Below are positions 1,670-36,842 of a stretch of 37,041 bases of DNA, piece after piece; position 1 is the first letter of the stretch, and each line of letters starts with the position of its first letter. The stretch is from Fidelibacterota bacterium. GTDB taxonomy: Bacteria; Fidelibacterota; Marinisomatia; Marinisomatales; JAADGP01. The notes under the pieces are model-generated. The model was not told the DNA's origin, did no database searches, and worked only from the letters and a program-made list of their open reading frames with translations. A program made the translations under genes and the position numbers. Location: positions 1 to 37,041 of the forward strand of contig JALUTR010000226.1 of the NCBI GenBank assembly GCA_027021785.1, read 5' to 3'.

Positions 1670-2019
1670 TTGAAATCTGCGGTAACGACGGAAAATCGGC
1701 GGAAAGCCGGCGCAATGTTTGACCGGAAAATAATTATGTGATTATATATTGAATTTATATTCACAATATTTATTGTTAAATAATTTTGGAAAAATGTAAT
1801 TATTTTATAAGCAAATGTCAATACTCGGTCATCATTCTTTCTGGTGACATTATTGACGCAATCGTAAAAAAGTCGTGAAGCAGAATGACCTCAGGGATTA
1901 AGTTATTGATATTAATGTTGCTATCTGATTTCGGTACAAGTCTTGGTTTTTATTAATATTGATTTGTAACCATTTCCTTCTTTCTCCATCAAATAAGTGG
2001 ATTTAATTGAGGGGGAAAT
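1670..2019. other. AT-rich divergent intergenic region
   Basis: These 350 bases separate minus-strand barrel genes from the plus-strand thioredoxin run and must hold promoters in both directions. The stretch 1730-1800 is very AT-rich. I could not fix a convincing -35/-10 pair. A 20-base segment at 1854-1873 matches one end of the inverted-repeat element at 27994-28123 and is listed separately. No reading frame here looks coding. Confidence 0.5.
1854..1873 (+). repeat. Solo end of an intergenic inverted-repeat element
   Basis: GACGCAATCGTAAAAAAGTC here closely matches GATGCAATCGTAAAAAGTCC at 27994-28013, which is one end of an element with inverted ends. No matching inverted partner is visible nearby, so this may be a decayed or truncated copy. 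The match is short and judged by eye only. Confidence 0.35.
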
Positions 2020-2382
2020 ATGTTCGATTCAGATAAACAAAACAACGTTGTGGAACTTACCGATGACAATTGGAATACCGAAGTTGAGGAATATACCGGG
2101 TTAATTTTAGTGGACGTTTGGGCGCCCTGGTGTGCGCCTTGCCGGATTATCGGACCGTTCATCGATGAACTCGCAAATGAATACCTTGGACACGTGAAAG
2201 TTGGTAAATTAAACGCAGACAGGAATGGAATAGCATCCCAGTTAAGTGTCACGGCTATTCCCACGATTCTGTTTATCAGGGACAACCGGGTTGTGGATCG
2301 GGTAGTCGGTACGGTGCCGAAGCGGTATTTGGTTGAGAAGCTGGAATACCATTTAGCCGGTGTGAACGCGGTGGCGGTGTAA
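2020..2382 (+). CDS. trxA: Thioredoxin
   Basis: The product has 120 residues, slightly longer than usual for thioredoxin because of a short N-terminal extension. The active site is W37-C38-A-P-C41, a CAPC variant of the canonical CGPC. The fold markers are present: the buried Asp region LVDVWAPW before the active site and the cis-proline loop at T-A-I-P81-T. It would act in the cytoplasm as a disulfide reductase, since there is no signal peptide. A strong GAGGGGG ribosome-binding site precedes the ATG. It is followed after 44 bases by an ECF sigma factor and its zinc-finger anti-sigma factor, a context that hints at thiol-based regulation. Other possibilities are few; the family call is secure, the partner proteins are not. 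Confidence 0.93.
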   Translation: MFDSDKQNNVVELTDDNWNTEVEEYTGLILVDVWAPWCAPCRIIGPFIDELANEYLGHVKVGKLNADRNGIASQLSVTAIPTILFIRDNRVVDRVVGTVPKRYLVEKLEYHLAGVNAVAV

Positions 2383-2426
2383 GCAATGAAAGTGCCCGGG
2401 ACGGAATTTGACGGAGTCTTCTGGAA

Positions 2427-3023
2427 ATGGCGGAAGAAAATAAAATCGAAAAACAGCTTATCGAAAAAGCCAAGAATGGCGATAAAACCGCTATTTCCGA
2501 ATTGGTTCATCGCTACTCATCCCGAATATACAGTCTGGCCCTGCGGATAATGCGAAATGAGGAAGATGCCGAGGATGTTCTACAGGAAACATTTATCATT
2601 ATGATCCGCAAGATCCACACCTTCTCCGGACGTTCTTCCTTTTATACCTGGCTGTACCGGGTGGCAGCCAATGTTGCCCTTGGGAAACTGCGGCAGAAAA
2701 AGCACATTGATAGCAAAGTGTCGATTTATGAATCGGAATTCGAGACTCTGCGCGGTTCCGGACTCCATAATTGGCCCGACCAACTGGACAGTCGTATCAA
2801 CGATAAGCAGTTCCGGGAATGCCTGAAACAGGCCATGGTTGATCTGCCGGAAAACCATCGGGCCGTATTCGTTCTGCGTGATCTGGAGAATCTTTCAACC
2901 AGGGAGACGGCGGATATTTTAAATATCAGTGAAGCCAATGTGAAAGTTCGCCTCATGCGGGCCCGGCTTTTCCTGCGTGATCAATTGATGCACCACCTGA
3001 AATGCATGGAGGGCATCCGGTGA
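2427..3023 (+). CDS. RNA polymerase ECF-type sigma factor (sigma-70 family)
   Basis: The product has 198 residues, typical of group 4 (ECF) sigma factors. Region 2 spans about residues 25-92, with the core-binding motif around NEEDAEDVLQETFI and the promoter -10 recognition part around FSGRSSFYTWLYRVAANVAL. Region 4 spans about 137-190, with a helix-turn-helix at LSTRETADILNISEANVKVRL. There is no extra C-terminal domain. GGAG lies ten bases before the ATG. The stop codon overlaps the start of the anti-sigma gene (GTGA), implying translational coupling. It probably directs RNA polymerase to the promoter of its own operon and others. The target promoters cannot be read from this window. Confidence 0.92.
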   Translation: MAEENKIEKQLIEKAKNGDKTAISELVHRYSSRIYSLALRIMRNEEDAEDVLQETFIIMIRKIHTFSGRSSFYTWLYRVAANVALGKLRQKKHIDSKVSIYESEFETLRGSGLHNWPDQLDSRINDKQFRECLKQAMVDLPENHRAVFVLRDLENLSTRETADILNISEANVKVRLMRARLFLRDQLMHHLKCMEGIR

Positions 3024-3262
3024 TTCAACATACGTCACACAACCAGGACCTGATTAAGTTATTGGAAGAACAGTTGGGAAAGGATGTGGATGCCCGGATC
3101 ATCCGGGAAGTGGCCGAACACATGGAGGAGTGCCCCGACTGCCGTGTCTTTGTCGACAGCGTGAAACAGACGATCAAACTGTACCGGGTAACAGAAAAAG
3201 AAACCTCCATTCCGGATAACGTTTCGGAACGGTTATTCAAAGTTCTCAATTTGAATCGGTAA
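3020..3262 (+). CDS. Soluble zinc-finger anti-sigma factor (ZAS type)
   Basis: The frame is open from an ATG at 3002, but the better start is GTG at 3020. GGAGGG lies six bases upstream, and the GTG overlaps the sigma-factor stop as GTGA. That gives 80 residues. The motif H34-x3-C38-x2-C41 is the hallmark of zinc-binding anti-sigma domains such as RsrA and ChrR. There is no membrane helix, so it acts in the cytoplasm by sequestering the adjacent sigma factor. The protein has only these two cysteines. It lacks the additional N-terminal cysteine that forms the trigger disulfide in RsrA, so any redox response would have to use the CxxC pair itself. The signal is unknown. Confidence 0.85.
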   Translation: MIQHTSHNQDLIKLLEEQLGKDVDARIIREVAEHMEECPDCRVFVDSVKQTIKLYRVTEKETSIPDNVSERLFKVLNLNR

Positions 3263-3335: not shown

Positions 3336-3554
3336 ATGATTACCAAGGATATTTACATCGAAGATCTGGTTCGGGATTACCCGGAAGTTGTCGGCCTCCT
3401 GGCCGATAAAGGACTGGTTTGTGTCCTTTGCGGAGAACCGGTGTGGGGAACGCTGGGAGATTTAGCGCGGAGTAAAGATATGGAAAATATCGATACAATC
3501 GTCGATGAATTGAACCGGGTTATCGTGGCGAAAGAGAAACCGGGAATTGGGTAA
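3336..3554 (+). CDS. DUF1858 domain protein
   Basis: An upstream in-frame GTG at 3312 exists, but family members normally begin MITKD, so the ATG at 3336 is chosen (72 residues). The sequence ITKDIYIEDLVRDYPEVVGLLADKGLVCVLCGEPVWGTL is typical of DUF1858, the small helical domain also found at the N-terminus of ScdA/RIC iron-sulfur repair proteins and next to hybrid-cluster proteins. The conserved C-x2-C (CVLC) and the Gly-Glu-Pro turn are present. The role of stand-alone copies is unsettled; binding of a metal or an Fe-S related partner is the usual guess. It overlaps the next gene by eight bases. Confidence 0.8.
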   Translation: MITKDIYIEDLVRDYPEVVGLLADKGLVCVLCGEPVWGTLGDLARSKDMENIDTIVDELNRVIVAKEKPGIG

Positions 3555-3747
3555 TCGGCTGGAATCCCGTCCCTGGATTAAAACATTTGCCGGTATTTTC
3601 ATTGGCGCGGTATTGGGCTGGGGATATTATTACCTGATCGGATGTCGTTCCGGAAATTGCGCCATAACCGGCGATCCTGTAAACAGCAGTATTTTTGGCG
3701 GAGTCCTGGGGCTTATCCTGGTATTTCCGTTTAACAAAAAGGAGTAA
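3547..3747 (+). CDS. DUF6132-like small membrane protein
   Basis: The 66-residue product starts at a TTG that overlaps the end of the DUF1858 gene. One membrane helix runs about residues 13-31 (TFAGIFIGAVLGWGYYYLIG) and a second about 49-61 (GGVLGLILVFPF). They are joined by a conserved loop GCRSGNCAITGDPVNS. The two cysteines in GC-x3-C and the ITxxP pattern match the DUF6132 family, which is often found beside rhodanese, thioredoxin and heavy-metal genes. Function is not established. Membrane location and a redox or sulfur role are inferences from neighbours. Confidence 0.7.
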   Translation: MGNRLESRPWIKTFAGIFIGAVLGWGYYYLIGCRSGNCAITGDPVNSSIFGGVLGLILVFPFNKKE

Positions 3748-3753: not shown

Positions 3754-4140
3754 ATGAGTTACGGATATCAAAGAACCATAGATCAAAAATTTGAGGATGT
3801 CGACCGGAAAATTCGCGAGACCCTGAAAGAACGTGGTTTCGGAATCCTGACGGAAATCGATGTGAAGGCAACCTTGAAAAAGAAGTTGGATGTGGATTTT
3901 CAAAAATACCGCATCCTGGGCGCCTGCAACCCACCCTTCGCGCATCAGGCGCTGACAACCGAAAAAGAGATCGGGTTACTGTTGCCGTGTAACGTGGTCC
4001 TTTGGGAAAACGAGGACGGGAGCACAACATTGTCGGCCGTTGACGCCACCCAAATGCTGGCCCTTTCCGGTCGGAAAGAACTGGACGATCTGGCCGGCAA
4101 AGTCAGTAACCTTTTGCGTGAAGCGGTAGATGCCGTATGA
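3754..4140 (+). CDS. DUF302 family protein
   Basis: The 128-residue product has a good ribosome-binding site (AAAAGGAGTAAAG) before the ATG. The pattern FGILTEIDVKATLKKKL..., followed by YRILGACNPPFAHQAL and IGLLLPCNVVLWE, is diagnostic of DUF302. These small alpha/beta proteins are common in sulfur-oxidising and anaerobic bacteria. Two conserved cysteines sit in GACNPP and LPCNVV. The biochemical function is unknown; haem, metal or sulfur handling has been suggested from context. It directly follows the DUF6132 gene and overlaps the next 29-codon frame by four bases (ATGA), so the genes are translationally coupled. Confidence 0.88.
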   Translation: MSYGYQRTIDQKFEDVDRKIRETLKERGFGILTEIDVKATLKKKLDVDFQKYRILGACNPPFAHQALTTEKEIGLLLPCNVVLWENEDGSTTLSAVDATQMLALSGRKELDDLAGKVSNLLREAVDAV

Positions 4141-4226
4141 GCGATCTTGTGAATCTTGTCATTGGATTGGTAGTGTTGGCCGTCATAATCAAAATAATGA
4201 TTCCCATAAAGAAAGCGGAAACCTGA
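4137..4226 (+). CDS. 29-residue single-helix membrane peptide
   Basis: This short frame starts at ATG 4137, overlapping the DUF302 stop as ATGA, and ends at TGA 4226. The product MSDLVNLVIGLVVLAVIIKIM continues with a short basic tail (IPIKKAET). It is almost entirely one hydrophobic helix with a positively charged C-terminal end, as expected of a small inner-membrane peptide. Coupling to the DUF302 gene and the non-random composition support translation. No homologue is recognised. It could be a membrane anchor or partner for the DUF302 or DUF6132 proteins, but that is a guess. Confidence 0.5.
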   Translation: MSDLVNLVIGLVVLAVIIKIMIPIKKAET

Positions 4227-4310: not shown

Positions 4311-4535
4311 ATGCCGATGTTTGACTATCGCTGCAGGAATTGTGAGCATGTGTTTGAGGAATTGGTGGCTTCCAGTTCCGTTCCCGATGAGGAAATCGAA
4401 TGTCCGAGATGCAAACAACGTCAATCGGAAAGGCTTCTTTCCGCGCCCATGATTTCAGTGGGTCGGTCATCTGACGGTTGTCCCGCCTATTCCCCGTCGA
4501 ATCCGAATTGTAATGCCGCGAACGGTTTTACCTGA
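4311..4535 (+). CDS. FmdB-family zinc ribbon protein
   Basis: The 74-residue product begins MPMFDYRC, matching the usual MPIYEYRC opening of FmdB-type regulatory zinc ribbons. The four ligands are C8-x2-C11 and C31-x2-C34, followed by the characteristic SERLLSAPMISVG segment. The C-terminus carries two more cysteines in a low-complexity tail (CPAYSPSNPNCNAANGF). AAGGAG lies about ten bases before the ATG. The family was first named from amidase and formamidase operons, but most members have no proven function; zinc binding is the only safe statement. It is 84 bases downstream of the preceding small gene and may end the same transcript. Confidence 0.85.
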   Translation: MPMFDYRCRNCEHVFEELVASSSVPDEEIECPRCKQRQSERLLSAPMISVGRSSDGCPAYSPSNPNCNAANGFT

Positions 4536-5044: not shown

Positions 5045-6436
5045 ATGGATAATATCGACGTAGATCCTTTGCTTATTGATGAAACCGCAGGGCGGGAGTC
5101 GTCCCGGTTGCAGACGTTTTTGGACGACCCGCCTCGGGCGCTTTGGACCCTTGCGATTCCGATTATGATCGGCATGGGGATGCAAACCCTGTATTCCCTG
5201 GTGGATATGATTTTTATCGGTCGATTGGGTGGTGAATCAATTGCCGCGGTAGCGTTTAATATGCCTCTTTTCTTTCTTGTATTGGGGTTGACAATGGGGT
5301 TGGGCACCGGTGTTACTTCGTCCATCGCCCGCTTTATCGGGGCGAAAGACAAAATAAACGCCGACAACAGCGCCGAACATGCCGTTGTGATGGGAGTCGG
5401 CATCAGCGTGGTGTTGGCGACTACCGGGCTGATTTACGGAGAGGAAATCCTGATTTTCCTGGGAGCGACAAAAAACCTGCTTCACCTGGCCTGGGCGTAC
5501 CTGCGGATTATTTGTTATGGTTTGCCGTTTATGATTTTTTCGGCCTTCTTCCGTTCGATATTGGCCGGAGAAGGGGACATGAAATTACCCATGATCATCG
5601 CCGGTTTGGGTACCATCCTGAATGTAATTCTCGATCCGATTTTTATTTTCGGTTTGTCGCTGGGCGTGGCGGGCGCGGCGTTGGCCACAATAATCAGCCA
5701 GGCAATGGTATTCCTGATTTTTGTGTATATGATGTTCGTGAAAAAACATTCTTACATCACGTTTCGGTTACGGCATTTTTCATTTTCACTCTTTATTTTA
5801 AAGGAAATAATAAAAGTGGGATTGCCGGCATCGATGTCGATGTTGATTATGGCGATCGGACAGGCTGTTTTTAACCGGATCCTGGTTTTTTATTCCACCG
5901 ATACCGTCGCCGCCTATCAAATCGGCGGACGGATCGATATGATGGTTTTCCTGCCGATCATGTCGATCGGCGCCTCCCTGACCACCCTCGTCGGAATGTT
6001 TTTCGGCGCCCGTGAATTTTCCAAAATGAAGTATGTGGTGAAATATGGAATCAGTCGGGCTGTCCTGATAACATTGGTCAGTTCAACGTTGGTGTTTCTG
6101 TTTGCCCCGATTCTTGTTAACGTCTTTTCGGACAGCGACTACATTCACGAAATAGCGGTTATGTATTTACGGCTGATTACGCTGGTCTATCCCTTTATTG
6201 CCATTGGCATGACCAGCGGACGGGTCTTACAGGGATTAGGAAAAGGAATGCCGCTTTTAGCGATCACTACCGTTCGGGTGCTGGGTGTTTCGGCGCCCCT
6301 GGCGGTTCTGTTTGCCTTTGTTCTCAATAAACCCGTAGAATGGGTGTGGTATTCGATGATGGCCTCAACCCTGGTGGCGGTTACCATAGCCCTGACGTGG
6401 GTGAAACAGACTTTTAAACAGTTGGCCATCGCGTAA
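5045..6436 (+). CDS. MATE family multidrug/sodium antiporter
   Basis: The 463-residue product is the normal length for a MATE transporter with twelve membrane helices. The start of the fold is visible at PRALWTLAIPIMIGMGMQTLYSLVDMIFIGRLGG (residues about 29-62), the standard MatE opening. The second half repeats it at IIKVGLPASMSMLIMAIGQAVFNRIL (about 256-281). The motif GDMKLPMIIAGLGTILNVILDPIFIFG is typical of the NorM/DinF-like bacterial branch. It exchanges sodium or protons for organic cations or other substrates across the inner membrane; the substrate cannot be told. No good ribosome-binding site precedes the ATG. It stands alone, with large gaps on both sides. Confidence 0.92.
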   Translation: MDNIDVDPLLIDETAGRESSRLQTFLDDPPRALWTLAIPIMIGMGMQTLYSLVDMIFIGRLGGESIAAVAFNMPLFFLVLGLTMGLGTGVTSSIARFIGAKDKINADNSAEHAVVMGVGISVVLATTGLIYGEEILIFLGATKNLLHLAWAYLRIICYGLPFMIFSAFFRSILAGEGDMKLPMIIAGLGTILNVILDPIFIFGLSLGVAGAALATIISQAMVFLIFVYMMFVKKHSYITFRLRHFSFSLFILKEIIKVGLPASMSMLIMAIGQAVFNRILVFYSTDTVAAYQIGGRIDMMVFLPIMSIGASLTTLVGMFFGAREFSKMKYVVKYGISRAVLITLVSSTLVFLFAPILVNVFSDSDYIHEIAVMYLRLITLVYPFIAIGMTSGRVLQGLGKGMPLLAITTVRVLGVSAPLAVLFAFVLNKPVEWVWYSMMASTLVAVTIALTWVKQTFKQLAIA

Positions 6437-6802: not shown

Positions 6803-7729
6803 GTGACTGAGTTGCTGACCGGTCTTTCCCAGGAAGTCGTCAGCGGGATTGCCCTGGGGTGCATTTACGCGTTGGTCGCTCTGGGGTTTACCCTGATCTA
6901 CCGCGCGACGGAGGTCGTGAATTTTGCCCAGGGTGAACTCATGATGGTGGGGGCATACGTTAATTTTTTCCTCGTGTCCCGGATCTCCGCCAACCTGGGG
7001 ATTACCGGCGCATGGATGTATTTTATCGCGTTCATGGGGGCGTTACTGTTCGCAATCATTTTCGGAATCATTCTGGACCTGGTCATAAATCGGCCCCTCC
7101 GGGACCAACCGGTTTTTTCCGTTATCATGGCTACCATCAGCATTTCGATTATTCTGCGCGCGTTGGTGGCAATGATTGCCGGTCCGTTTACCCATATTCA
7201 GTCTTCGCCTTTTGGCGACGGCGTCGTGTCCTTTAATAAAATAGCCATTTCGGTTCAGGATGTATTCATCATTTTTTGCGCGATCGTTTTGGTGATATTG
7301 TTTTACATTTTTTTCAGGAAATCGCGTTGGGGAGTGGCTATGCAGGCCACTTCCGCGGATCCCACGGCGGCGCAGCTTATGGGCATTCCGGTCAAAAAGG
7401 TGTACCGGCTGGTTTGGATTTTTGCCACCCTTGTTGCCACGGTGGGGGGGATATTGCTGGCGCCCAAAACCTTGCTGGATACGAATATCGGGTTCATAGG
7501 TTTGAAAGCATTCCCGGCAGCCGTCCTGGGAGGCTTCGGATCCGTCCCGGGCGCAATTTTCGGAGGTGTAATTTTGGGAATCATTGAGACAATCAGCGCG
7601 GGAACGTTGTCGTACCATTTCGCGTGGATCAAAGAAATCAATGATGTAATACCCTGGCTTGTGCTGATCGCGGTACTAATGGTGAAACCGGATGGAATTT
7701 TCGGCATCGCAAAAGTGAAGAAGGTTTAG
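6803..7729 (+). CDS. livH: Branched-chain-amino-acid-type ABC transporter permease LivH
   Basis: The 308-residue product starts at GTG 6803, with GGAGG eleven bases upstream. It has about eight membrane helices and the LivH landmarks. GIALGCIYALVALGFTLIYRATEVVNFAQGELMMVGAY lies near the N-terminus, the ABC-interaction loop is near RWGVAMQATSADPTAAQLMGIPV (about 175-195), and AVLGGFGSVPGAIFGGVILGIIE is near residue 235. It forms the inner-membrane channel with LivM. It is the first gene of a six-gene run (permease, permease, binding protein, two ATPases, acyl-CoA synthetase). The family name reflects branched-chain amino acids, but many relatives carry other carboxylates or amides, and the neighbours point that way here. 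Confidence 0.92.
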   Translation: MTELLTGLSQEVVSGIALGCIYALVALGFTLIYRATEVVNFAQGELMMVGAYVNFFLVSRISANLGITGAWMYFIAFMGALLFAIIFGIILDLVINRPLRDQPVFSVIMATISISIILRALVAMIAGPFTHIQSSPFGDGVVSFNKIAISVQDVFIIFCAIVLVILFYIFFRKSRWGVAMQATSADPTAAQLMGIPVKKVYRLVWIFATLVATVGGILLAPKTLLDTNIGFIGLKAFPAAVLGGFGSVPGAIFGGVILGIIETISAGTLSYHFAWIKEINDVIPWLVLIAVLMVKPDGIFGIAKVKKV

Positions 7730-7761
7730 CATCCCAACGGCGACAGGAAACACGTAAAGCA

Positions 7762-8793
7762 ATGAAAGGCCGATATGAAGATGAAAAATTATTTTGGATT
7801 CCGGTTCTAATCGCGGCGGTGTTTCTGCTCCCTTTCTTACTGAAAGGGATGACGAACAGTTATCGGTATTACCTTTATGTTTTGAATATCGCCGGCATAT
7901 ATATGATTTTAACCGTCGGTTTGGATCTGTTAAGCGGTTATACCGGGTTGATTTCCCTGGGACATGCCGCCTTTTTCGCAATCGGGGCCTATTTATCGGC
8001 GATTTTGGTCGACCAGGGCGGACTTCCCTTTGAACTGTCTTTGATCATCGCTCCTCTGTTGACAGGACTTTTCGGCTTAGTCATCGGTTTTCCGGCGTTA
8101 AGACTCGAGGGAATGTACCTGGGACTGGCCACTATGGGGTTTGGTTTTATCGTTAAACGTATGATTATCGCCTTGCGTCAATGGACCCAGGGCTCCAATG
8201 GTTTACAGGTGTCTTCTCCACATATTTTCGGGTTCACGTTCCGGAACGATTGGGATAATTATTTTCTTATATACACCGGTGTTGTTCTGACGGTTGTAAT
8301 AGCACGGAGAATGGTCAGGTCCAAACTGGGACGGGCGTTTATGGCCATTCGGGATTCCGAACGGGCGGCGGAAGCGGTAGGCATCCGGTTGGCGAAATAC
8401 AAAATGATTTCCTTTTTTATTTCCGGCGTATTCGCCGGATTCGCGGGAGTCCTCTTTGCCCATACGTCGCATTTTATAAGTACCGACCATTTTGATATCT
8501 TATTGTCCGTCTATTTCATTATTATGATTCTTGTGGGTGGTGTCGGTTCAATCTACGGGGCCGTTTTGGGAGCGTTGTTCATCGTATTGCTGGACAATCT
8601 TGCGATCCCGCTTTTTAAGGATTGGTTACAAACATTCATCACGGTTGAAGCCGGGGATATTCAATCCCTCATTTTTGGTCTTATTATGTTCCTTTTCATT
8701 ATATTCCAACCTACCGGTTTGTACGGATTATGGCTGAAGGTACGTATCTACTGGAAATTATTCCCCTTTAATCCCAGAAAAAGATTTAGCTGA
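7762..8793 (+). CDS. livM: Branched-chain-amino-acid-type ABC transporter permease LivM
   Basis: The 343-residue product has about ten membrane helices. LivM landmarks are GLDLLSGYTGLISLGHAAFFAIGAYLSAIL (about 53-82), GFPALRLEGMYLGLATMGFGFIVK (about 109-133), the coupling loop GRAFMAIRDSERAAEAVGI (about 191-210) and LVGGVGSIYGAVLGALFIVLL near 258-278. It pairs with LivH 32 bases upstream. An AGGAAA ribosome-binding site lies before the ATG. The C-terminal tail after LFIIFQPTGLYGLW is short and basic, as expected on the cytoplasmic side. Confidence 0.92.
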   Translation: MKGRYEDEKLFWIPVLIAAVFLLPFLLKGMTNSYRYYLYVLNIAGIYMILTVGLDLLSGYTGLISLGHAAFFAIGAYLSAILVDQGGLPFELSLIIAPLLTGLFGLVIGFPALRLEGMYLGLATMGFGFIVKRMIIALRQWTQGSNGLQVSSPHIFGFTFRNDWDNYFLIYTGVVLTVVIARRMVRSKLGRAFMAIRDSERAAEAVGIRLAKYKMISFFISGVFAGFAGVLFAHTSHFISTDHFDILLSVYFIIMILVGGVGSIYGAVLGALFIVLLDNLAIPLFKDWLQTFITVEAGDIQSLIFGLIMFLFIIFQPTGLYGLWLKVRIYWKLFPFNPRKRFS

Positions 8794-8829
8794 ACCGCAA
8801 TTACCATTACAAATAATAAGGAGACAATT

Positions 8830-9990
8830 ATGAAGTTGAAAATGAGTTTGGTAGGAATTACCATTACTCTGCTTTTAGTTGGATGCGCTAAAAAGGAACT
8901 GACGCCCGGTGTAACCGATACTGAAATCCTGATTGGCAACATTCAGGATTTAAGCGGTCCCATGAAGGAATTGGGTTATCTTTTGCCGGCCGGCGCGAAT
9001 TTGTATTTCCAGTACATCAACGACCAGGGCGGTATCTACGGCCGTAAGATTCGAATGCTTGTGGAAGACCATCAATACAACCCGCAAAAAGCGGTGGCCG
9101 CGGCCAAGAAACTGATTGAGAAAGATCAGGTGTTCTGCCTGTATCAGGTTATCGGGACTTCTACCAGTGAAGCCATCATACCGATCCTCGAGGAGTATAA
9201 AATCCCTTTAGTGGCGCCGGCGACGCAATCGGGAACAATGTCCAGGCCGTTACGGCGGTATATCTTCCAAACCGATACCGGGTACGACAAACAGATGAAT
9301 GTCCTGATCGATTACATCCTGAGACAGGACAAAAACGCCAGGATCGGCCTGATTTACCAGGATGACAATTACGGCGCAAATGCTTTGAAAGGGGCTGCCG
9401 AAGCGGAGGCGCGCCACAAAATTACCCTCCAGAAAGAATCCTATCAGCGCGGCGCCTCGGACTTTTCCGGACAGGTCGGCAATTTGATGAAGGGCGGCGC
9501 CACCCACGTAATTATCGCCGGCATTGTGAGGGAACCGATCATCATTATGAAAACCGCCGCCGCAATGGGTTACAGACCACAATTTTTAGGACTTAGTCCC
9601 ACGATGGACCACCGGGTAGCCATAGCCGCCGGTCCGGCCGGCGAAGGGTACATCGCGGCGAACTTTGCCCCCCTGTGGAATTCCGACGCTCCGGGACCGG
9701 TATTGTACCGCAAACTTCACGACAAGTATGCGGATCCCAAAACCCTCCCACTGGGGATGTATAGCTATTATGGATTTGCCACCGCAACGGTACTGGTGGA
9801 AGCGTTGAAAAACGCCGGAAAGGACCTGACACGCGCGAGTTTTTTGCAGGCGTTGAATTCGCTTGATTACAAAGGTGGCAGTTTCCCCGATTTTAAGTGG
9901 ACGCGTACCAATCATGGCAGTTCCGGGAAAGTGGTATTAGTCCAGGTGAAGAATGGGAAACAGGTGGAAATTTCCGATTGGCTTGACTAA
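8830..9990 (+). CDS. livK: Periplasmic substrate-binding lipoprotein of the Liv-type ABC transporter
   Basis: The 386-residue product has a good AAGGAG site. The signal peptide ends in a lipobox L-V-G-C19, so the mature protein is a lipoprotein anchored by Cys19. The mature part is a periplasmic-binding-protein type 1 fold: TDTEILIGNIQDLSGPMKELGY at the start, GGIYGRKIRMLVEDHQYNPQKA around 58-80, and a second lobe from about 145. These match the ABC-type branched-chain amino acid binding family (LivJ/LivK and amide- or carboxylate-binding relatives). It delivers ligand to LivHM. The ligand is not deducible; a carboxylic acid is suggested by the acyl-CoA synthetase at the end of the run. A 204-base gap with no recognised feature follows. 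Confidence 0.9.
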   Translation: MKLKMSLVGITITLLLVGCAKKELTPGVTDTEILIGNIQDLSGPMKELGYLLPAGANLYFQYINDQGGIYGRKIRMLVEDHQYNPQKAVAAAKKLIEKDQVFCLYQVIGTSTSEAIIPILEEYKIPLVAPATQSGTMSRPLRRYIFQTDTGYDKQMNVLIDYILRQDKNARIGLIYQDDNYGANALKGAAEAEARHKITLQKESYQRGASDFSGQVGNLMKGGATHVIIAGIVREPIIIMKTAAAMGYRPQFLGLSPTMDHRVAIAAGPAGEGYIAANFAPLWNSDAPGPVLYRKLHDKYADPKTLPLGMYSYYGFATATVLVEALKNAGKDLTRASFLQALNSLDYKGGSFPDFKWTRTNHGSSGKVVLVQVKNGKQVEISDWLD

Positions 9991-10194
9991 CCGGGAATTA
10001 TTGTAAAGGAATATCCGGGTGTTTATGGCAGCGCAAAAAAGAGCGGGGTTGCTTGAAAATGAGTTGCTTCCGGTCTTACCCCTTATGAAAAAGAGCCCCT
10101 GCCCGTTTCGCGCATGATCTTTTTGTCCCTCAAACACCTGAACGTCCCTGTCTTTCGATCCGTAAATGTTCGGACGGTTACAATATAAGTCGTC

Positions 10195-10956
10195 ATGCCT
10201 GACTTACTGATTGACAACCTGCACATTCATTTTGACGGTGTCATCGCGTTGGATGATGTTTCGTTAACGGTAAAGAGTGGGGAGATTTTTTCGTTAATCG
10301 GCCCGAACGGATCCGGGAAATCAACATTGTTTAACTGCATTAATGGTTTCAATCGCCCCCGGAAGGGGGCGATCCGTTTCGGAGGGATCAATCTGCTGCG
10401 AAAAAAGACGCATGAGATCCCTCTCCTGGGAATTGCCCGAACGTTCCAGAATCTCCAAAACGTTCCCTACATGACGGTACTCGATAATGTCCTGTTGGGA
10501 GCGCATTTGAGAATCAGCAAGCGCGACACGGTCAAACGCTGGCTGTCGCGGAAACAACGGGTGGCGGAGGAGGCGCTGGCCCTGGAAATCATGGATCTTC
10601 TGGGTATCGCCAATTTTGAACGGAAATATTTGTTGGGTCAGCCTTTCGGTATCCGGAAACTGGTGGAAATCGCCCGCGCGCTGGTTTCACGGCCAAAATT
10701 GATTTTACTGGATGAACCGGCGGCGGGAATGAACGATCAGGAAACGATCGAAATCGCGAAAATTATCACGGAGATTCGAAATGAACTCGGGATCACCGTC
10801 CTGGTGGTGGAACATGATATGCGCCTGGTCATGAGAATTTCGGATCGCATTTGCGTATTGGATTCGGGAAAGGTAATCACCATCGGTAAGCCGGACGAAG
10901 TGAAACAGCATCCGGAGGTTGTCAAAGTATTCTTAGGGGAGGGAACCGATGCTTAA
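10195..10956 (+). CDS. livG: Liv-type ABC transporter ATPase LivG
   Basis: The 253-residue product is the usual LivG length. Walker A is G36-PNGSGKST44, Walker B is LILLD173-E174-P, and the switch histidine is in VVEHDM. The signature motif is divergent, reading GQPFGIRKLVEIARAL instead of LSGGQ. This kind of change is common in LivG, which usually has a YGQQRRLE-like form. The Q-loop region (GIARTFQNLQNVPYMTVLDNVLLGAH) and the insertion that follows are typical of LivG. No ribosome-binding site is obvious before the ATG, and 204 bases separate it from the binding protein. It overlaps livF by eight bases. Confidence 0.92.
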   Translation: MPDLLIDNLHIHFDGVIALDDVSLTVKSGEIFSLIGPNGSGKSTLFNCINGFNRPRKGAIRFGGINLLRKKTHEIPLLGIARTFQNLQNVPYMTVLDNVLLGAHLRISKRDTVKRWLSRKQRVAEEALALEIMDLLGIANFERKYLLGQPFGIRKLVEIARALVSRPKLILLDEPAAGMNDQETIEIAKIITEIRNELGITVLVVEHDMRLVMRISDRICVLDSGKVITIGKPDEVKQHPEVVKVFLGEGTDA

Positions 10957-11689
10957 ACTGGTGGGAGTGGAAACCTTTTACGGCAAGGTGAAAGCCCTCC
11001 ATGGTGTTTCCCTCGAAGTCCAAAAAGGACAATTGGTTTGTATCCTGGGTGCCAACGGGGCCGGGAAAACGACCATCCTGAAAACGATCAGCGGACTGGT
11101 TTCACCCGAAATGGGAACCGTCCGTTTTGAAGGCCGGCGGATCGATCAAATGGATCCCGAGGAAATCGTGGCCCTGGGAATATCCCATGTGCCCGAAGGA
11201 AGGCGCATTTTCCCCGAACTGACCGTCTATGAAAACCTGTTAATGGGTGGTTTTTTAATTGAATCCGGGGATTTGCTTAGGGAACGGTTGGAAGCGACCT
11301 ATGACCATTTCCCCCTCCTAAAGAAACGCCGACATCAGTTGGCCGGCACGTTAAGTGGCGGTGAACAACAGATGCTGGCCATTTCGCGTGCACTGATGCT
11401 GAAGCCCAAACTGTTATTGATGGATGAACCTTCCCTGGGACTGTCGCCGTTGTTGGTCCGGAATATTTTTCGAACGATACGCCGGCTTCATGAATCGGGA
11501 GTAACCATCCTGCTGGTTGAACAGAACGTAAACCTGGCTTTGCAGATCGCTGATTACGGATATGTCTTATCGAACGGAAAAATTTTTATTAGCGGAACCT
11601 ATGAAGAACTTATTGAAGAAGAAAAAGTGCGTGAATATTATCTGGGAGAAGGAAAATACATACGACGGTCCCGGCTTTGGAGTGGTTAG
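10949..11689 (+). CDS. livF: Liv-type ABC transporter ATPase LivF
   Basis: The 246-residue product has Walker A at G34-ANGAGKTT42, signature LSGGEQQ at 135-141, and Walker B LLLMD159-E160-P. The switch residue is Gln rather than His (LVEQN), which is characteristic of LivF. The FYGKVKALHGVSLEV opening and the HVPEGRRIFPELTVYENLLMGG segment also identify the subunit. It pairs with LivG to power transport through LivHM. The C-terminal residues (KYIRRSRLWSG) extend a little past the family norm, and the last codons overlap the start of the acyl-CoA synthetase, so the two are translationally coupled. Confidence 0.93.
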   Translation: MLKLVGVETFYGKVKALHGVSLEVQKGQLVCILGANGAGKTTILKTISGLVSPEMGTVRFEGRRIDQMDPEEIVALGISHVPEGRRIFPELTVYENLLMGGFLIESGDLLRERLEATYDHFPLLKKRRHQLAGTLSGGEQQMLAISRALMLKPKLLLMDEPSLGLSPLLVRNIFRTIRRLHESGVTILLVEQNVNLALQIADYGYVLSNGKIFISGTYEELIEEEKVREYYLGEGKYIRRSRLWSG

Positions 11690-29170: not shown

Positions 29171-30376
29171 TCAGGCGGTTTGCCCACAGCACTTTTTGTA
29201 TTTCTTCCCGCTGCCGCAAGGACAGGGACGGTTCCTCCCGATGTCGGATGGACGTTCCCGAAGGTCTTGTTGTCTTCTTTCTTTTATTATTGATGAAGCC
29301 AACCTCCGGAAATCCGAAATCGAATGTTGATAGAATTGTTTCCATCCCGCGCACAACCAACTTAATCCCTGCGGACTGTTTGGTCGATGTTTAAGACAAT
29401 CACCGGAGCAGTATGGAAGATATTCACACGCGGAACAGGCGGGATCCCAGGCCGTTTTTTGTTGACCGAAAGCCGCATATCGCGGTGACTGTTGCAGCGC
29501 TTCCCAGGAATCTTCCATGATATTGCCCAATTTCAAATCGGATTCAACATAGAAGTCACAGGGATATACGTCACCATTATATTCGACCACAAAATATTGA
29601 CAACAGTTACGGTCCATGCTGCATTCGCAATAAATATTTTCAACCATCTTCATAAGAATCGAATCAAACAACCGGACGGAGACTTTGCGCGTATCGGTCC
29701 GGATCCATTCATCAAAGATGTCACAAAGAAAAATGCCCCAGTCCTCGGCGGTCACTGTAAAGGGCATGGGCTCATTATTACCGTCAAACTCCACACACGG
29801 TATGTACTGATGATAGAGCAGCCCCATGTCCCGTAAGTAGCGATATATTTCCCGGCCTTTCCCCACGTTCGCGGAATTGACCAGTATCAATATATTGAAA
29901 TCAACCTTGTTACGCGTAAGGCATTTGATTCCGTTTAAAACATCCCTGTGAGAACCACGGCCTTTGATTGTTAAACGATACCGATCATGAACATCCGCAG
30001 GCCCGTCGAGGCTGACTCCCACCAGGAAATTGTATTCCGCCAGTAATTGAGCAAACTTGTCATCGATCAATGTGGCGTTTGTCTGGAGACTGTTGGCGAC
30101 ACTGACACCGCTTTTTCCGTATTTCTGCTGTAGTTGTATGACTTTTCGGAAAAAGGTAGCTCCCATCAGGGTCGGCTCGCCACCCTGCCAGTTGAAAATA
30201 TATTGTGGTTGCCGGGTCGACATGTAACCGGAAATCATCTGTTCCAGAACGTCATCGGACATGCGATGGCGTTTCGATTCCGGGTAGAGCGTGTGGCGGT
30301 CCAGATAAAAACAATATTCGCAATGCAGATTGCAATCCGCGGACGTGGGCTTGATTAATAACGAGAACGGTTTCAT
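29171..30376 (-). CDS. Anaerobic sulfatase-maturating enzyme (radical SAM) with C-terminal SEC-C motif
   Basis: The product has 401 residues. The radical-SAM cluster is C15-x3-C19-x2-C22 near the N-terminus, followed by the family pattern DRHTLYPESKRHRMSDDVLEQMI and NWQGGEPTLMG. The SPASM region carries the auxiliary Fe-S cysteines around CSMDRNCCQYF, VYPCDFY and CSACEYLPYCSGDC. These define anSME, which oxidises an active-site Cys (or Ser) of sulfatases to formylglycine in the cytoplasm without oxygen. The last 20 residues hold a SEC-C zinc motif, C385-x-C387-x8-C396-C397, like the one at the end of SecA. It starts 33 bases after the last sulfatase gene, and the four sulfatases upstream are Cys-type and so are its likely substrates. 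Confidence 0.92.
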   Translation of the reverse strand: MKPFSLLIKPTSADCNLHCEYCFYLDRHTLYPESKRHRMSDDVLEQMISGYMSTRQPQYIFNWQGGEPTLMGATFFRKVIQLQQKYGKSGVSVANSLQTNATLIDDKFAQLLAEYNFLVGVSLDGPADVHDRYRLTIKGRGSHRDVLNGIKCLTRNKVDFNILILVNSANVGKGREIYRYLRDMGLLYHQYIPCVEFDGNNEPMPFTVTAEDWGIFLCDIFDEWIRTDTRKVSVRLFDSILMKMVENIYCECSMDRNCCQYFVVEYNGDVYPCDFYVESDLKLGNIMEDSWEALQQSPRYAAFGQQKTAWDPACSACEYLPYCSGDCLKHRPNSPQGLSWLCAGWKQFYQHSISDFRRLASSIIKERRQQDLRERPSDIGRNRPCPCGSGKKYKKCCGQTA

Positions 30377-30409
30377 GTAATTAGCATGAGATAACCGTCT
30401 CCGACGTGT

Positions 30410-32005
30410 TCAGGCATTTTTACGTTTTTGTTTTCTGAGTTCCAGTATTTCTTCCCAGGGGACAACCTGGCTTCGGGCAGCCCATTGTTCGTATAGTTCC
30501 GACAGTTCCCGCACAACCTCCGGATATTCCCCGGCGATGTCGTGGATTTCCGTGCGGTCCGCTTCCATGTCATACAATTCCCAGTCTCCCGGATATTTGC
30601 ACACCAGTTTCCATTTCCCTTTCCGGATTGCCTTGTTGCCTTCATGTTCCCAATAGAGGACTTCCCGGGGAGCGGGGTTATTCGTGAAGGTTGGCGCCAT
30701 GCTGAACCCTTCCGCCGGTTTAATTTCGTGACCGTTGTACGTAGTGGGATATTCAACCCCGGCAATATCCAGAAAGGTGGCCATAATATCCGGTAATTGC
30801 GCGGGCTGGTGCCGCAATTCATTTTTCGCGTGGATTCCTTCCGGCCAATGCACAATCAGGGGGGTCGCGATCCCGCCTTCATGCACCCAGTGTTTGTACA
30901 GTCTGAAGGGAGTATTGGAAACATTAGCCCAGGGGATACCGTAACTCTGATATGTCTCTTCGCCTCCGGGCATTACTCCCGGCCTGTTGCCGTATAAGAC
31001 TTCTCTCCCGTCGCGGGTCTTCGCCGTGCCGGTCGGCTCAATGTCCAATGCCCAGTGGCGTGTCCATTCGTCCAGTTCCTCCGCGCACCCGCCGTTATCG
31101 GAAAGAAAGAAAATCATGGTGTTGTCCCAGTGACCGGTATCTTTCAGTGTTTGCAGGATACGTCCGATGCCCTGATCCATGCGATCAATCTGGGCGGCAT
31201 AGATTTCCATGCGCCTGGTCTGCCAATCCTTGTATTCGGCTTCTTCCCAGGGGGGAACCCGTGGGTCCCGTTCGGTGAGGGGCCAGCTATCGTCAATAAT
31301 TCCCATTTCGATCATGCGTTTCCGGCGCTCACGACGGAGATTATCCCAGCCCGCATCGAAACGCCCATTGTATTTTGCGATGTCTTCGGGGTGGGCGTGC
31401 AACGGCCAATGGGGCGCCGTGTAGGCAACATATTGGAAAAACGGTTTTGCCGGTTGTTTTTTTGAATGTTCCCGGATTTGACGCACCGCTTCATCCGAAA
31501 TGGCATCGGTGAGAAAATAATCGTCGCCTTCCGGTGTAATGCGTTCGTTGTTGCGCGTCAGCGTTCGCGGTTGGAAATAATTGGCGGCTCCCACGATGAT
31601 GCCGTAGTAGTCGTCAAAACCGCGCTGACAGGGCCAGTTGTGTTTCGGGCCGTCAACAAATCCGGTGACATGCCATTTGCCGGACATGTAGGTGGCATAG
31701 CCGCCGGTTTTCAACGCTTCGGCGATGGTTACCGTATTGGCGTTCAAATCACCCACGTAACCGTCGATGCCGTCGTTTTGCGTCATGTGACCCACGTCGG
31801 CCTGATGGGGGTACAGACCGGTCAAAAGCGAGGCCCGGGAAGGACAGCAACGGGCCGTGTTGTAAAACTGTGTGTATCGCAGACCATTCGCTGCCAGTGA
31901 ATCGAGATTAGGGGTTTGGACTTCCCCGCCGTAACACCCCAGGTCGGAGTAACCCATGTCGTCGTTTAGGATCAGAATAATATTAGGCTTTTTAATTTTA
32001 TTCAT
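30410..32005 (-). CDS. Cys-type sulfatase without signal peptide (arylsulfatase-like)
   Basis: The product has 531 residues. Metal ligands D15-D16 (ILNDDMGYSDLG) are followed by the formylglycine motif C53-C-P-S-R57 with ASLLTG. Other core pieces are GKWHVTGF and DNGGCAEE. No signal peptide is present: the protein begins MNKIKKPNIILIL, and the frame upstream soon meets a stop, so it should stay in the cytoplasm. It is closely similar to the sulfatase at 33595-35289 throughout, down to the C-terminal EQWAARSQVVPWEEILELRK region, so the two are paralogues. It would hydrolyse a sulfate ester on a sugar or aryl compound; the substrate cannot be named. Confidence 0.9.
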   Translation of the reverse strand: MNKIKKPNIILILNDDMGYSDLGCYGGEVQTPNLDSLAANGLRYTQFYNTARCCPSRASLLTGLYPHQADVGHMTQNDGIDGYVGDLNANTVTIAEALKTGGYATYMSGKWHVTGFVDGPKHNWPCQRGFDDYYGIIVGAANYFQPRTLTRNNERITPEGDDYFLTDAISDEAVRQIREHSKKQPAKPFFQYVAYTAPHWPLHAHPEDIAKYNGRFDAGWDNLRRERRKRMIEMGIIDDSWPLTERDPRVPPWEEAEYKDWQTRRMEIYAAQIDRMDQGIGRILQTLKDTGHWDNTMIFFLSDNGGCAEELDEWTRHWALDIEPTGTAKTRDGREVLYGNRPGVMPGGEETYQSYGIPWANVSNTPFRLYKHWVHEGGIATPLIVHWPEGIHAKNELRHQPAQLPDIMATFLDIAGVEYPTTYNGHEIKPAEGFSMAPTFTNNPAPREVLYWEHEGNKAIRKGKWKLVCKYPGDWELYDMEADRTEIHDIAGEYPEVVRELSELYEQWAARSQVVPWEEILELRKQKRKNA

Positions 32006-32093
32006 TGTGTTTATTCCGTTTGTTATTGGTCTCTCGATAACATTTATTTATTCGGTGCCAGCGATGGTACAAAATTTATTACGGAGCAATCAA

Positions 32094-33467
32094 TTAATCC
32101 GTATCGATGCCGGTATCGCCCTGGGATTTCATCCAGGCTTCCAGTTCGGAGCGCATCTCCCGAATGATTCCGGCGTATTTCGGATCATCGATAAGATTGT
32201 TGAGTTCATAGGGATCATTCTGTATATCGTAGAACTCAAACTCGGGACGATGTATATATCGTTCAACAATTTTGGCGGCGTGCTCATCTGTCTTCGCTTT
32301 TTCAACCCATGACATCCAGAGCTTATTCGACGGACGAGTGGCATATTTACCGTCATAAGGTTCCTTGTACAGCAAATTATGAATCAATTTATACTGTTTA
32401 CTCCGTATGGAACGGATGGGGTAAGGCAGGCCTTCCGGGACATTCGCGTGCAGCCCAAAGGCATAATCACGGTGTTGGTCTGTTTTACCAAGGAGCACGT
32501 CGAGAAAACTGAATCCGTCAATATTCGCCGGTGGTTTTCCGCCGGCGGCATCAATCAATGTCGGCAGGATGTCTTCATATTGAACCAGAGCCCGGGTGGT
32601 GGTGTTTGGTTTGATTTTCCCGGGCCAGCGGGCCAGCATTCCGAATTTGGTTCCCGCGTCCCATTGCGTCCACTTATTACCCGGGAATTGGGCGCCCTGT
32701 TCGCTGGCAAAAATGAAGAGTGTATTATCGGCCAGTTTTTCTTCTTCCAGCAGGTTCATCACGTCGCCCACCTGCCGATCCAATTCGGTCAGTTCCGCCA
32801 GGTATTTTTGGTACGCGGAACGGGTTTCCGGTGTGTCAAGCCAATTGGGCGGCAATTTGAGCGAATCGGGCGGATACAATGAACGGTCACCTTCGGTCCA
32901 GGGCGCGTGGGGATAAACCGAAGCAATAACCAGGCAAAAAGGCTCTTCCGCATTGCGGGTCATAAATTCCTTTGAGCCGGTCAAATCATGGGGAGGCGTC
33001 TTTTGCATCACACAATTGCCCGGGAAACCGCCGACCGGTTCGAATGGAAACGATTCTTTGGGGGCAATGTGCCATTTCCCGGCCAATCCGACCCGGTAGC
33101 CCAAAGCGCGAAGATAATGAACGATACTTTTGGTCCCCGGTTTGACGGCGCTGTGATTCTTGTACCCGCCGCGTTTGATGGGATATATCCCGGTATAAAG
33201 GGAATGACGCGTGGGTGTACACATGGCCGTGGACCCGATGGCCTGTTCAAAGCGCACGCTTTGGGTGGCGAGATTATCGATATTCGGCGTGATGGCCTGT
33301 CCGCCGTAACAACCAAGATCATCCCAGTTGCAGTCGTCACCCAGCATGATTACGAAATTGGGTTTACGGGTATCGGCGGTAGCACAGCCGGTAAACAGTA
33401 ACGGAGATGCGATAGCGCTCAGACCAAGCCCCATGCCCAACTTCTCCAGGAATTCACGTCTTTCCAT
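32094..33467 (-). CDS. Exported Cys-type sulfatase (heparan N-sulfatase-like)
   Basis: The frame is open from 33515, but the ATG at 33467 (MERREFLEKL) is chosen because it gives a proper signal. That signal has a twin-arginine-like start (ERREFLEKLGMGLGLSA) and ends L-F-T-G-C28, a lipobox, so the enzyme is probably a Tat-exported lipoprotein. The mature part of about 430 residues has metal ligands in MLGDDCNWDDLG and the formylglycine motif C83-T-P-T-R87 with HSLYTG. The segment GLAGKWHIAPKESFPFEPVG resembles N-sulfoglucosamine sulfohydrolases. It ends with the usual YDIQNDPYELNNL. It is a member of the four-sulfatase run, 88 bases before the next. Confidence 0.87.
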   Translation of the reverse strand: MERREFLEKLGMGLGLSAIASPLLFTGCATADTRKPNFVIMLGDDCNWDDLGCYGGQAITPNIDNLATQSVRFEQAIGSTAMCTPTRHSLYTGIYPIKRGGYKNHSAVKPGTKSIVHYLRALGYRVGLAGKWHIAPKESFPFEPVGGFPGNCVMQKTPPHDLTGSKEFMTRNAEEPFCLVIASVYPHAPWTEGDRSLYPPDSLKLPPNWLDTPETRSAYQKYLAELTELDRQVGDVMNLLEEEKLADNTLFIFASEQGAQFPGNKWTQWDAGTKFGMLARWPGKIKPNTTTRALVQYEDILPTLIDAAGGKPPANIDGFSFLDVLLGKTDQHRDYAFGLHANVPEGLPYPIRSIRSKQYKLIHNLLYKEPYDGKYATRPSNKLWMSWVEKAKTDEHAAKIVERYIHRPEFEFYDIQNDPYELNNLIDDPKYAGIIREMRSELEAWMKSQGDTGIDTD

Positions 33468-33594
33468 TTTTTTAGTCCCCCGTACTAATTTTATTGTTTT
33501 ATCTTGTTCGCACAAAAATAAGTGTGGTATCGGCAGCGGTGACTATAAAGTCGTCAAAAAATCATGTCGCTTCCAATCCGTTGGAATTGTGTTT

Positions 33595-35289: not shown

Positions 35290-35354
35290 TTATTTCCTCG
35301 CGTGTAATTAAACCTGAAAATCATGGTTTGGTAATGGTTCATTCACCCCGTGAT

Positions 35355-36842
35355 TTATTGATGTGGTGTCCAATAGTTACGACGATCTTTTTTAAAGACA
35401 TATCTTCTTCTGGGATAGGGCAGGGGATCCTGGACACGCAGGATCCAGGTTAACAAATCTTCCAGTAACGACTGCCTGATTTCAGCCGATTCAGGATCAT
35501 CAAATAAATTGTTCAATTCCACCGGATCGTCTTTCAGATTGTACAATTCTCCTTTGCCTTCCATGTTGAAGACCAGTTTCCAATTATCCCGGCGGACCAT
35601 ACGCATGGTTCCGCTCTGGGTCCAGGAATTCAGGCAATCAAAGCTGAACTCGTTGTTTAAGGCTCCTTCGTCCACCGGGTCGAGGTCGTCTTTTTCCGTG
35701 TAATTAAGTCCGCCGAAACCGTGCTCGGCATAGGCGCTGGAAAACTCGGTTTCCGGATATTTCTGTCCGGTGAGCAAGGGCCACAGGCTCCGACCCTGTA
35801 CGCCGTCGGGAATTTCCACGTTCAGCGCCTCACAGATTGTCGGCATAATGTCGCAGATGTTCACGTGCGCTTCATGGGGAGTGTCCTTCGCGACGATACC
35901 GGGGCCGGTGAAAAAGAGAGGGATTCGGGTCAGACATTCCGGAAGGTCCGGCCCCTTACGGATCAACCCGTACTCGCCCGCGAAATCACCGTGATCCGAA
36001 AGAAAAACGATAATGGTATTATCGTAAAGGTCAGTTTCTTTAAGGAAAGTGACGAAGCGTTGTACCTGATCGTCGATCAGGCGCAACATCCCGTGGTAGT
36101 TCGCGCGGGCGCGATTGAGTTCAGCGGCATAATCGGGAACCGCCCGGTTCCAGACGCTCCTTAACCACTGCCAGCGGAACCCCTTTTTTGCCAACGCTTT
36201 TTCATCCGACCGGCAAGGGGGGAGTTGTTCGGGTGGGAACAGGGAATAATACGGTTCCGGCACTTGGTAAGGGTTGTGCGGTTCGGCGAAGGTCAGCCAC
36301 AGGAAGAAAGGCGCTCCGGACAAGGAATCGATCCATTCCCGGGCTTTGGTAACAGCCCGGTAAGGGCCCTGGCATTCGACCGGGAAAGGCGTCGGCTCAG
36401 GATATGTCCGGTGGTGAAGTGAGTGCAGGAATTCATCGAATTCCTTTTCCTGCTTGGTGCGGTTTTTACCGGAACCGCCTCCGTGATCGAAATGAGCGCA
36501 GAAGTCCAAACGGTCTTCGGTAAGGTGAGAGTGATTTTTCCCCGACATGCCGATTTTGTACCCCTGTTCTTTCAGGACGTCTATCAAATCCCGGGAATAG
36601 GTGGCATCTTCGATATTGTGGTTGGTTCGCACACGGGTGGCGCTGGGGTAGCGTCCGGTGAACATGCTGACGCGGGCGGGGGCGCAAACCGGCATACAGG
36701 TGTAAGCCCGGTTAAAATCGATGCCTGTACGGGCCAGGGAATCAAGGAAGGGGGTGGTATCTAACGGATATCCCTCCCGTGCCGATAAATCAGCCCGCTG
36801 CTGATCGGTCATTATGATGATGATATTTGGCTTGTTTCGCAA
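35355..36842 (-). CDS. Cys-type sulfatase, second subtype, no signal peptide
   Basis: The product has 495 residues. The start is a TTG at 36842 with AGGAAA just upstream; no in-frame ATG precedes it. Metal ligands appear as IIMTDQQRADL, the formylglycine motif is C53-A-P-A-R57 with VSMFTG, followed by GMSGKNHSHL, FLSDHGDFAGEYGL and YNLKDDPVELNNLFDDP. The form resembles choline-sulfatase or sugar-sulfatase types rather than the arylsulfatase pair in this locus. No signal peptide is seen, so it is likely cytoplasmic. It is the first gene of the minus-strand sulfatase run and may be transcribed with the others (65-base gap to the next). Confidence 0.88.
   Translation of the reverse strand: MRNKPNIIIIMTDQQRADLSAREGYPLDTTPFLDSLARTGIDFNRAYTCMPVCAPARVSMFTGRYPSATRVRTNHNIEDATYSRDLIDVLKEQGYKIGMSGKNHSHLTEDRLDFCAHFDHGGGSGKNRTKQEKEFDEFLHSLHHRTYPEPTPFPVECQGPYRAVTKAREWIDSLSGAPFFLWLTFAEPHNPYQVPEPYYSLFPPEQLPPCRSDEKALAKKGFRWQWLRSVWNRAVPDYAAELNRARANYHGMLRLIDDQVQRFVTFLKETDLYDNTIIVFLSDHGDFAGEYGLIRKGPDLPECLTRIPLFFTGPGIVAKDTPHEAHVNICDIMPTICEALNVEIPDGVQGRSLWPLLTGQKYPETEFSSAYAEHGFGGLNYTEKDDLDPVDEGALNNEFSFDCLNSWTQSGTMRMVRRDNWKLVFNMEGKGELYNLKDDPVELNNLFDDPESAEIRQSLLEDLLTWILRVQDPLPYPRRRYVFKKDRRNYWTPHQ

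Follow-up and report, generated by a model that had tools for sequence, protein, structure and literature searches.

A predicted SigR/RsrA-like thiol-stress system in the Neomarinimicrobiota phylum, with a redox sensor plausibly shared between sigma and anti-sigma factor

We analyzed a stretch of 37,041 nucleotides (hereafter, the window), which is contig C226 of a 3.2 Mb genome of the order Marinisomatales assembled in 446 contigs. A predicted ECF promoter, TGTAAC-N16-CATCAAA, lies at positions 1965..1993 (+), 26 nt upstream of the ATG of trx (2020..2382, +), which encodes a 120-aa protein with the motif WCAPC and a PF00085 match at 5.7e-25. Its score against TIGR01068 (94.3 bits) was slightly short of the cut-off of 96.8; we took a thioredoxin domain with WCxPC as the mark of a thioredoxin, and the protein has both. 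The gene is followed by an ECF sigma factor of 198 aa (2427..3023, +; region 2 at 5e-19, region 4 at 9e-16), in which the cysteines C132 (2820-2822, +) and C193 (3003-3005, +) flank region 4. A soluble ZAS-type anti-sigma factor of 80 aa (3020..3262, +) starts at a GTG that overlaps the sigma stop codon as GTGA, with GGAGG immediately 5′; an alternative, longer frame from the ATG at 3002 is possible. Coordinates, frames, and domain searches all agree with the first-pass annotation of the window, which had placed trx, an ECF sigma factor, and a soluble H-x3-C-x2-C anti-sigma in this order with GTGA coupling.

The operon runs on beyond the anti-sigma gene, with forward-strand genes that were absent from that annotation. 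These encode a DUF1858, or redox-disulfide-domain-like, protein (3336..3554; PF08984 at 25.6 bits and TIGR03980 at 32.1 bits, each below its cut-off), a small DUF6132 membrane protein with a conserved GCxxGxC motif (3547..3747; 25.1 bits, cut-off 23.2), a DUF302 protein (3754..4140; 6.4e-27), and an FmdB-type zinc ribbon protein (4311..4535; TIGR02605 at 55.1 bits, cut-off 31.3). Between the last two, an open reading frame at 4137..4226 could encode a 29-aa membrane peptide, for which searches of the Pfam and TIGR family models returned no match. After a gap comes a MATE efflux transporter (5045..6436; TIGR00797 at 4.6e-77), a conserved neighbor whose co-transcription with the operon is putative. 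Elsewhere in the window, we observed genes for an ABC transporter of the branched-chain-amino-acid type, among them a Peripla_BP_6 binding protein, then an acyl-CoA ligase-like gene (6803-11689, +), and about four sulfatase-like genes adjoining an apparent anaerobic sulfatase-maturating radical SAM enzyme (29171-36842, −; named by eye).

The anti-sigma factor matched zf-HC2 weakly (E 0.0011; 19.4 bits, below the cut-off of 22.2). When a profile of 54 relatives was used, Bacillus subtilis RsiW was the best match among solved structures (E 3.8e-4); the single sequence reached RsiW at an E of 0.12 only. The RsiW/SigW pair was likewise the top solved-structure sequence match for the sigma factor, but RsiW is a membrane CHCC protein that is cut by proteases and, in the part of PMC5358783 drawn on here, is not redox-controlled. 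A structure predicted from the 54 sequences has four helices (pLDDT 78), and Foldseek found no significant match to it; a prediction from 19 sequences was set aside at a pLDDT of 62. The protein carries HxxxCxxC, as H34-x3-C38-x2-C41 (codons at 3119-3121, 3131-3133, and 3140-3142, all +), with histidine upstream of it, the pattern by which ZAS proteins are recognized. C38 and C41 are its sole cysteines, and H4 and H7 lie near the position of the RsrA trigger cysteine, so the earlier description of a two-cysteine anti-sigma without a trigger cysteine holds. Its score against the RsrA model TIGR03988 was 18.5 bits, below the threshold of 62.5.

To place the module among relatives, we compared its genes across the order and the phylum. 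ECF orthologues at 51–69% identity were found in 18 of 60 relatives, with the next matches at 41% or lower. Some gaps and contig ends aside, ECF, anti-sigma, and downstream genes recur co-directionally in 18 more genomes of the order, which indicates that the arrangement is not due to chance. Comparison gives the common order as Trx, ECF, anti-sigma, DUF1858 and/or rhodanese, DUF6132, DUF302, FmdB, and MATE. Twelve module genomes out of 19, the window's included, have trx inside the operon; it is absent there in G011, G018, G030, G006, G007, G026, and G047. DUF1858 relatives are in position in 11 of the 18 other genomes. Upstream of the operon, 15 of 18 have a DASS/TrkA_C transporter as the neighbor and 2 have a butyrate-kinase/phosphotransbutyrylase-like pair (by eye); neither is present in the window. 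As a side observation, this pair replaces the DASS transporter at loci L050, L052, L319, and L321, and in part at L320. Bacteroidales ECF matches (L013-L017) had no related anti-sigma and no motif and were rejected as module members. Across the phylum, the anti-sigma profile found homologues in 92 of 245 genomes, of which 79 were read (the 19 first compared and 60 further loci) and 13 omitted, for example for contig ends or weak matches. An ECF gene lies beside the anti-sigma gene in all 60 further loci. Seven loci, all of family f29, carry a gene for a protein disulfide oxidoreductase instead of thioredoxin as the first one after the promoter site; only that of G219 was scored (282 bits, cut-off 185), and the frame in G211 is shorter.

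The promoter element was first spotted by reading upstream regions and then searched as a fixed pattern. TGTAAC-N16-NATCNAA was found 5′ of the first operon gene in 19/19 module genomes with a single spacer length, upstream of trx or, where the operon has no trx, of the sigma gene. In the phylum, TGTAAC-N15-17-ATCNAA occurs within 1 kb upstream of the ECF gene in 65 of 77 loci, G129 and G189 having been excluded from the 79 for too little upstream sequence, and the other 12 had no motif in that interval. As controls, these loci, 1.2 Mb with both strands counted, yielded 6 sites elsewhere, one of which (G180) precedes a thioredoxin gene farther upstream, and 1 site for the reversed pattern. The spacer is 15 nt in three loci (G062, G063, and G066). 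At L061, L062, and L064 (G007, G026, and G047), we observed that the −10 element CTAATG overlaps the apparent sigma ATG, which makes it probable that translation starts farther downstream or that the message is leaderless. From the placing of this promoter, which comparison brings out across genomes, the sigma operon is predicted to be autoregulated. The control of trx by the sigma factor that the annotation had supposed is likewise supported at the level of sequence, given a conserved ECF-like promoter that precedes trx or, in operons lacking it, the sigma gene.

Beyond the operon, the same element marks further candidate targets. All 19 module genomes have such a site in front of a thioredoxin gene; this gene belongs to the operon in 12 and lies elsewhere in 7, where the site precedes Trx2 (G011, G030, G006, G007, G026, and G047) or TrxA (G018, whose site is exact and has a spacer of 15 nt). 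Searching the window's genome for the strict pattern, one mismatch being allowed, gave 9 sites against 2 for backward controls. Four are well placed, at the sigma operon, at rplI, and at a divergent pair of Trx2 and OsmC, with one site for each gene of the pair, 29 nt from either ATG; of the remaining five, four fall within longer frames and the last is not followed by any plausible gene. Outside the operon, the 19 module genomes hold 17 exact strict sites, some of which overlap open frames on either strand. Six lie 5′ of thioredoxin or glutaredoxin genes, namely Trx2 (G026, G047, and G007, of one genus), TrxA (G002), and Grx (G047 and G011), while others precede SQR, Rrf2 (2), a CoA-binding protein, ArfB (2), rplI, a thioredoxin lookalike, and a short unknown protein, and two have no suitable gene or lie inside a frame. 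The product at G039:C107, which resembles a thioredoxin by eye, had no Pfam match and was not counted as one. In 30 further genomes, the strict pattern gave 28 sites against 3 backward controls; 13 were at the sigma operon, and 3 of the other 15 preceded thioredoxin genes (named by eye). With a looser pattern (spacers of 16–17 nt, no C before ATC), the 19 module genomes gave 76 sites (31 backward) and 19 other genomes gave 37 (21 backward), a modest genome-wide enrichment, so that only the strict form is telling.

Gene by gene, Trx2 had a site with at most one mismatch in 9 of 10 module genomes (the exception being G018), 26–34 nt before the start; of the two other genomes, G012 had such a site and G004 did not. 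Random 350-nt stretches, drawn from a pool that contained some of the same loci, had at most one mismatch in 29/4000 and at most two in 66/4000. At the one-mismatch limit, TrxA had a site in 3/14 module genomes, the window's not among them, against 1/16 others (G012), and with two mismatches allowed, in 4/14 against 2/16 (G012 and G019); the TrxA genes of two more module genomes (G026 and G047) had no site. OsmC had a site with at most one mismatch in 3/6 module genomes and at most two in 5/6, and also one in G012. For Grx, sites with at most one mismatch were found in 4/15 module genomes against 0/11 others; G006 has a site with a 17-nt spacer. G033 was taken here as a module genome; its module trx, with an exact site, stands at a contig end, so its sigma gene was probably lost to the break. 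The first-pass annotation had suggested a search for a promoter motif shared by trx and other loci, and some of the genomes do carry one before thioredoxin, glutaredoxin, and OsmC genes. We consider the arm leading from sigma factor to thioredoxin well supported by these comparisons.

That the module's sigma factor reads this promoter is something we infer, and the element might instead be read by another sigma factor or bound by another regulator, with the ECF controlling something else. In line with this, sites are also present in a few genomes where the search found no module sigma, namely G001 (rplI) and G012 (TrxA, Trx2, OsmC, and PntA). However, G012 is 87% complete and its family mates have the module, so its sigma gene may be unassembled; apart from G012, TrxA had no site with at most one mismatch in 15 non-module genomes (G019 has two mismatches), and the sole other non-module Trx2, in G004, had none. 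The element also clusters at the ECF operon and resembles ECF promoters such as the ECF16 type, tGTAACc-N16-CGAA, as given in an excerpt of PMC3420878. That promoter belongs to EcfF/OsrA of Bradyrhizobium, which the same excerpt describes as ROS-inducible and autoregulated with a requirement for the anti-sigma cysteines; its −35 is similar and its −10 differs, and OsrA is likened here by description rather than sequence. Altogether, a different reader of the element seems very unlikely. As separate observations, the exact motif stands 18 nt upstream of rplI (ribosomal protein L9) at G000:C159:1295-1323 (−; L071) and in the genus mate at G001:C121 (L098), for which no module sigma was found; rplI may be a real target or the match may be another conserved element. 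A 54-aa protein ending in SAGAC, with no Pfam match, follows the motif by about 150 nt at G039:C41 (L119) and G007:C138 (L116).

We next consider what the anti-sigma factor could sense. Across the 79 anti-sigmas, both CxxC cysteines are present in 77 (22/22 in the order), whereas the H34 column holds H in 38, L in 19, Y in 13, F in 4, E in 3, S in 1, and Q in 1. This retention of cysteines over histidines emerges by comparison. Within the order, H34 is kept in 18/22 and a histidine near H7 in 17/22; on a quick sigma tree, the H34 state changed at least 12 times, and G018 and G006, whose operon and promoter are the same, have anti-sigmas with only the CxxC left. The trigger-cysteine region has a histidine or no ligand in 78/79 and a cysteine in one, G206, where reading by eye found both extra cysteines (see below) and YxxC in place of CxxC. 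The annotation had offered zinc loss or a CxxC disulfide as the sensing chemistry. In the first case, the anti-sigma would be a sensor of zinc or metal state, with zinc loss from H7/H34/C38/C41 freeing the sigma factor and oxidation acting through zinc loss only. The window's protein does have the complete HHCC set, and RslA, an HHCC protein, is described in the section of PMC2877774 used here as expelling zinc upon oxidation, with sigma binding 8-fold weaker after CxxC oxidation. With H34 absent in 41/79, including 4/22 in the order, no N-terminal histidine near H7 in 5/22 order members, and CxxC largely intact, zinc loss is improbable as a general switch. In NMB2145, according to the part of PMC2893595 cited here, the ZAS histidine is dispensable and the cysteines matter.

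The cysteines themselves are distributed in opposite ways on the two proteins. The 22 anti-sigmas of the order have no cysteine besides CxxC, while those of the 57 outside it carry an additional pair, located some 22 and 10 residues N-terminal to CxxC. Conversely, sigma C132 and C193 are both present in 21/21 readable order members, and neither is present in the 57/57 relatives outside the order or in the 16/16 alignable sigma paralogues (L043 being omitted as incomplete, and L001 and L004 for lack of a match). The sigma trees exclude G108 (broken sigma frame) and G037 (split across two contigs). In the quick tree, family f20 fell inside the order on a long branch, but a single order clade was not rejected and had the higher likelihood (p-AU 0.667). 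One event can thus explain the exchange, and the clean split should not be counted as 79 independent cases. Relatives carry four or more cysteines on the anti-sigma; in the order, two of these would have been lost while two were gained on the sigma factor, so that the thiol sensor may have partly moved from one partner to the other, for which one evolutionary event suffices. Given these two order-specific, invariant sigma cysteines, which the annotation passes over, its second suggestion, a disulfide of the CxxC, is incomplete as a switch within the anti-sigma alone.

Histidine loss with CxxC retention, together with the order-specific sigma cysteines, favors thiol chemistry over zinc sensing, and a redox sensor shared by the anti-sigma and the sigma factor is plausible. 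Its specific form, an inter-protein disulfide or polysulfide joining sigma C132/C193 with anti-sigma C38/C41, we put forward tentatively. Less probable, in our view, is that the sigma factor is the only sensor, a C132-C193 disulfide changing the grip of the anti-sigma while CxxC is structural. The constancy of the pair in the order and its lack in paralogues suit this, and the pair C133/C183 of SigK in the Mycobacterium tuberculosis SigK/RskA system, described in an excerpt of PMC7509140 as influencing the complex, offers a precedent, set beside our sigma factor by description. The sign is opposite there, oxidation stabilizing the SigK complex, and RskA is a membrane protein of another kind. 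Moreover, the sigma factors outside the order have neither cysteine yet are still linked to the promoter and thioredoxin, and CxxC is retained in every anti-sigma of the order.

A further possibility is some other signal, such as sulfide or polysulfide produced or processed by the DUF302, rhodanese, DUF1858, and DUF6132 proteins, with the anti-sigma cysteines serving the fold only and thioredoxin being an output, with no loop. Rhodanese replaces DUF1858 in most loci without it (G026 has both), a site precedes a type III sulfide:quinone reductase in G049, and anti-sigma groups that mix zinc and non-zinc members suggest a structural role, as far as the portion of PMC7406223 used here goes. Against this, the SQR genes of the 7 other module genomes possessing one have no site, and SQR was rejected as a general regulon member; the retention of CxxC in the phylum and of the sigma cysteines in the order would also be left unexplained. 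We regard this account as unlikely, about on a par with sensing by the sigma factor alone. Separately, at L190-L197, type III SQR homologues with no motif were observed, flanked by a MerR-like gene and by DUF1641- and DsrC/TusE-like genes (neighbors by eye).

Returning to thiol-based sensing, we judge it likely from the comparative evidence that this is an autoregulated thiol-stress system resembling SigR/RsrA, including release by thiol chemistry and reset by thioredoxin. In reduced cells, the small anti-sigma would keep the ECF sigma factor bound. Exposure to an oxidant or to reactive sulfur species would then alter thiols of the complex, those of the anti-sigma CxxC and, in the order, probably sigma C132/C193. 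The freed sigma factor would transcribe its own operon (trx, sigma, anti-sigma, and the redox and sulfur-handling genes) from TGTAAC-N16-CATC[A/T/C]AA, and further thioredoxin, OsmC, or glutaredoxin genes elsewhere in the genome. Thioredoxin would finally restore the thiols and turn the system off. For the inducer, the release step, and the re-reduction by thioredoxin, we infer these roles by analogy with SigR/RsrA of Streptomyces, which the excerpts of PMC4960319 and PMC3961337 describe as an ECF with an adjacent small soluble ZAS anti-sigma and which likewise has thioredoxin in the regulon and its own operon as a target, both predicted here by promoter placing. In contrast to that pair, the window's system has no trigger cysteine, has HHCC in place of CHCC, eroding to CC in relatives, and has a different promoter and two sigma cysteines. 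It would work like SigR/RsrA while failing that family's trigger-cysteine and model tests, and is best called a variant, not a member.

In the portion of PMC4960319 used here, oxidation of a Cys11His variant of RsrA, which mimics HHCC, leads to zinc loss and the CxxC disulfide but not to sigma release, and HHCC ZAS proteins are argued to need added domains if they are to sense disulfide or peroxide stress, which counts against our main reading. ChrR/SigE of Rhodobacter sphaeroides shares the HHCC motif, but ChrR senses singlet oxygen via an added cupin domain; the window's 80-residue anti-sigma had no cupin match. In RslA/SigL of M. tuberculosis, the anti-sigma domain is likewise of the HHCC type and its CxxC is oxidized to a disulfide (PMC2877774, in part), but RslA is membrane-associated and the SigL regulon comprises cell-wall and polyketide genes.

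Searches of an open-licence library for work linking a sigma factor to thioredoxin in this phylum returned nothing relevant, and a search for DUF302 with rhodanese and thioredoxin likewise found none. With this module, the little-known, uncultured Neomarinimicrobiota phylum gains a predicted regulon for thiol stress, its promoter and targets included. It also bears on a point raised in the excerpt of PMC4960319, where ZAS proteins are said to answer diverse stresses and the HHCC type is argued to be insensitive to disulfide and peroxide, for here a single-domain HHCC anti-sigma, reduced to CxxC alone in some relatives, stands over an apparent thiol regulon. The conserved cysteines of both partners present four candidate residues (C38, C41, C132, and C193), with the sigma pair as a candidate sensor. 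If true, division of the sensor between the two partners would explain how thiol stress can be sensed by a ZAS protein that lacks the trigger cysteine.
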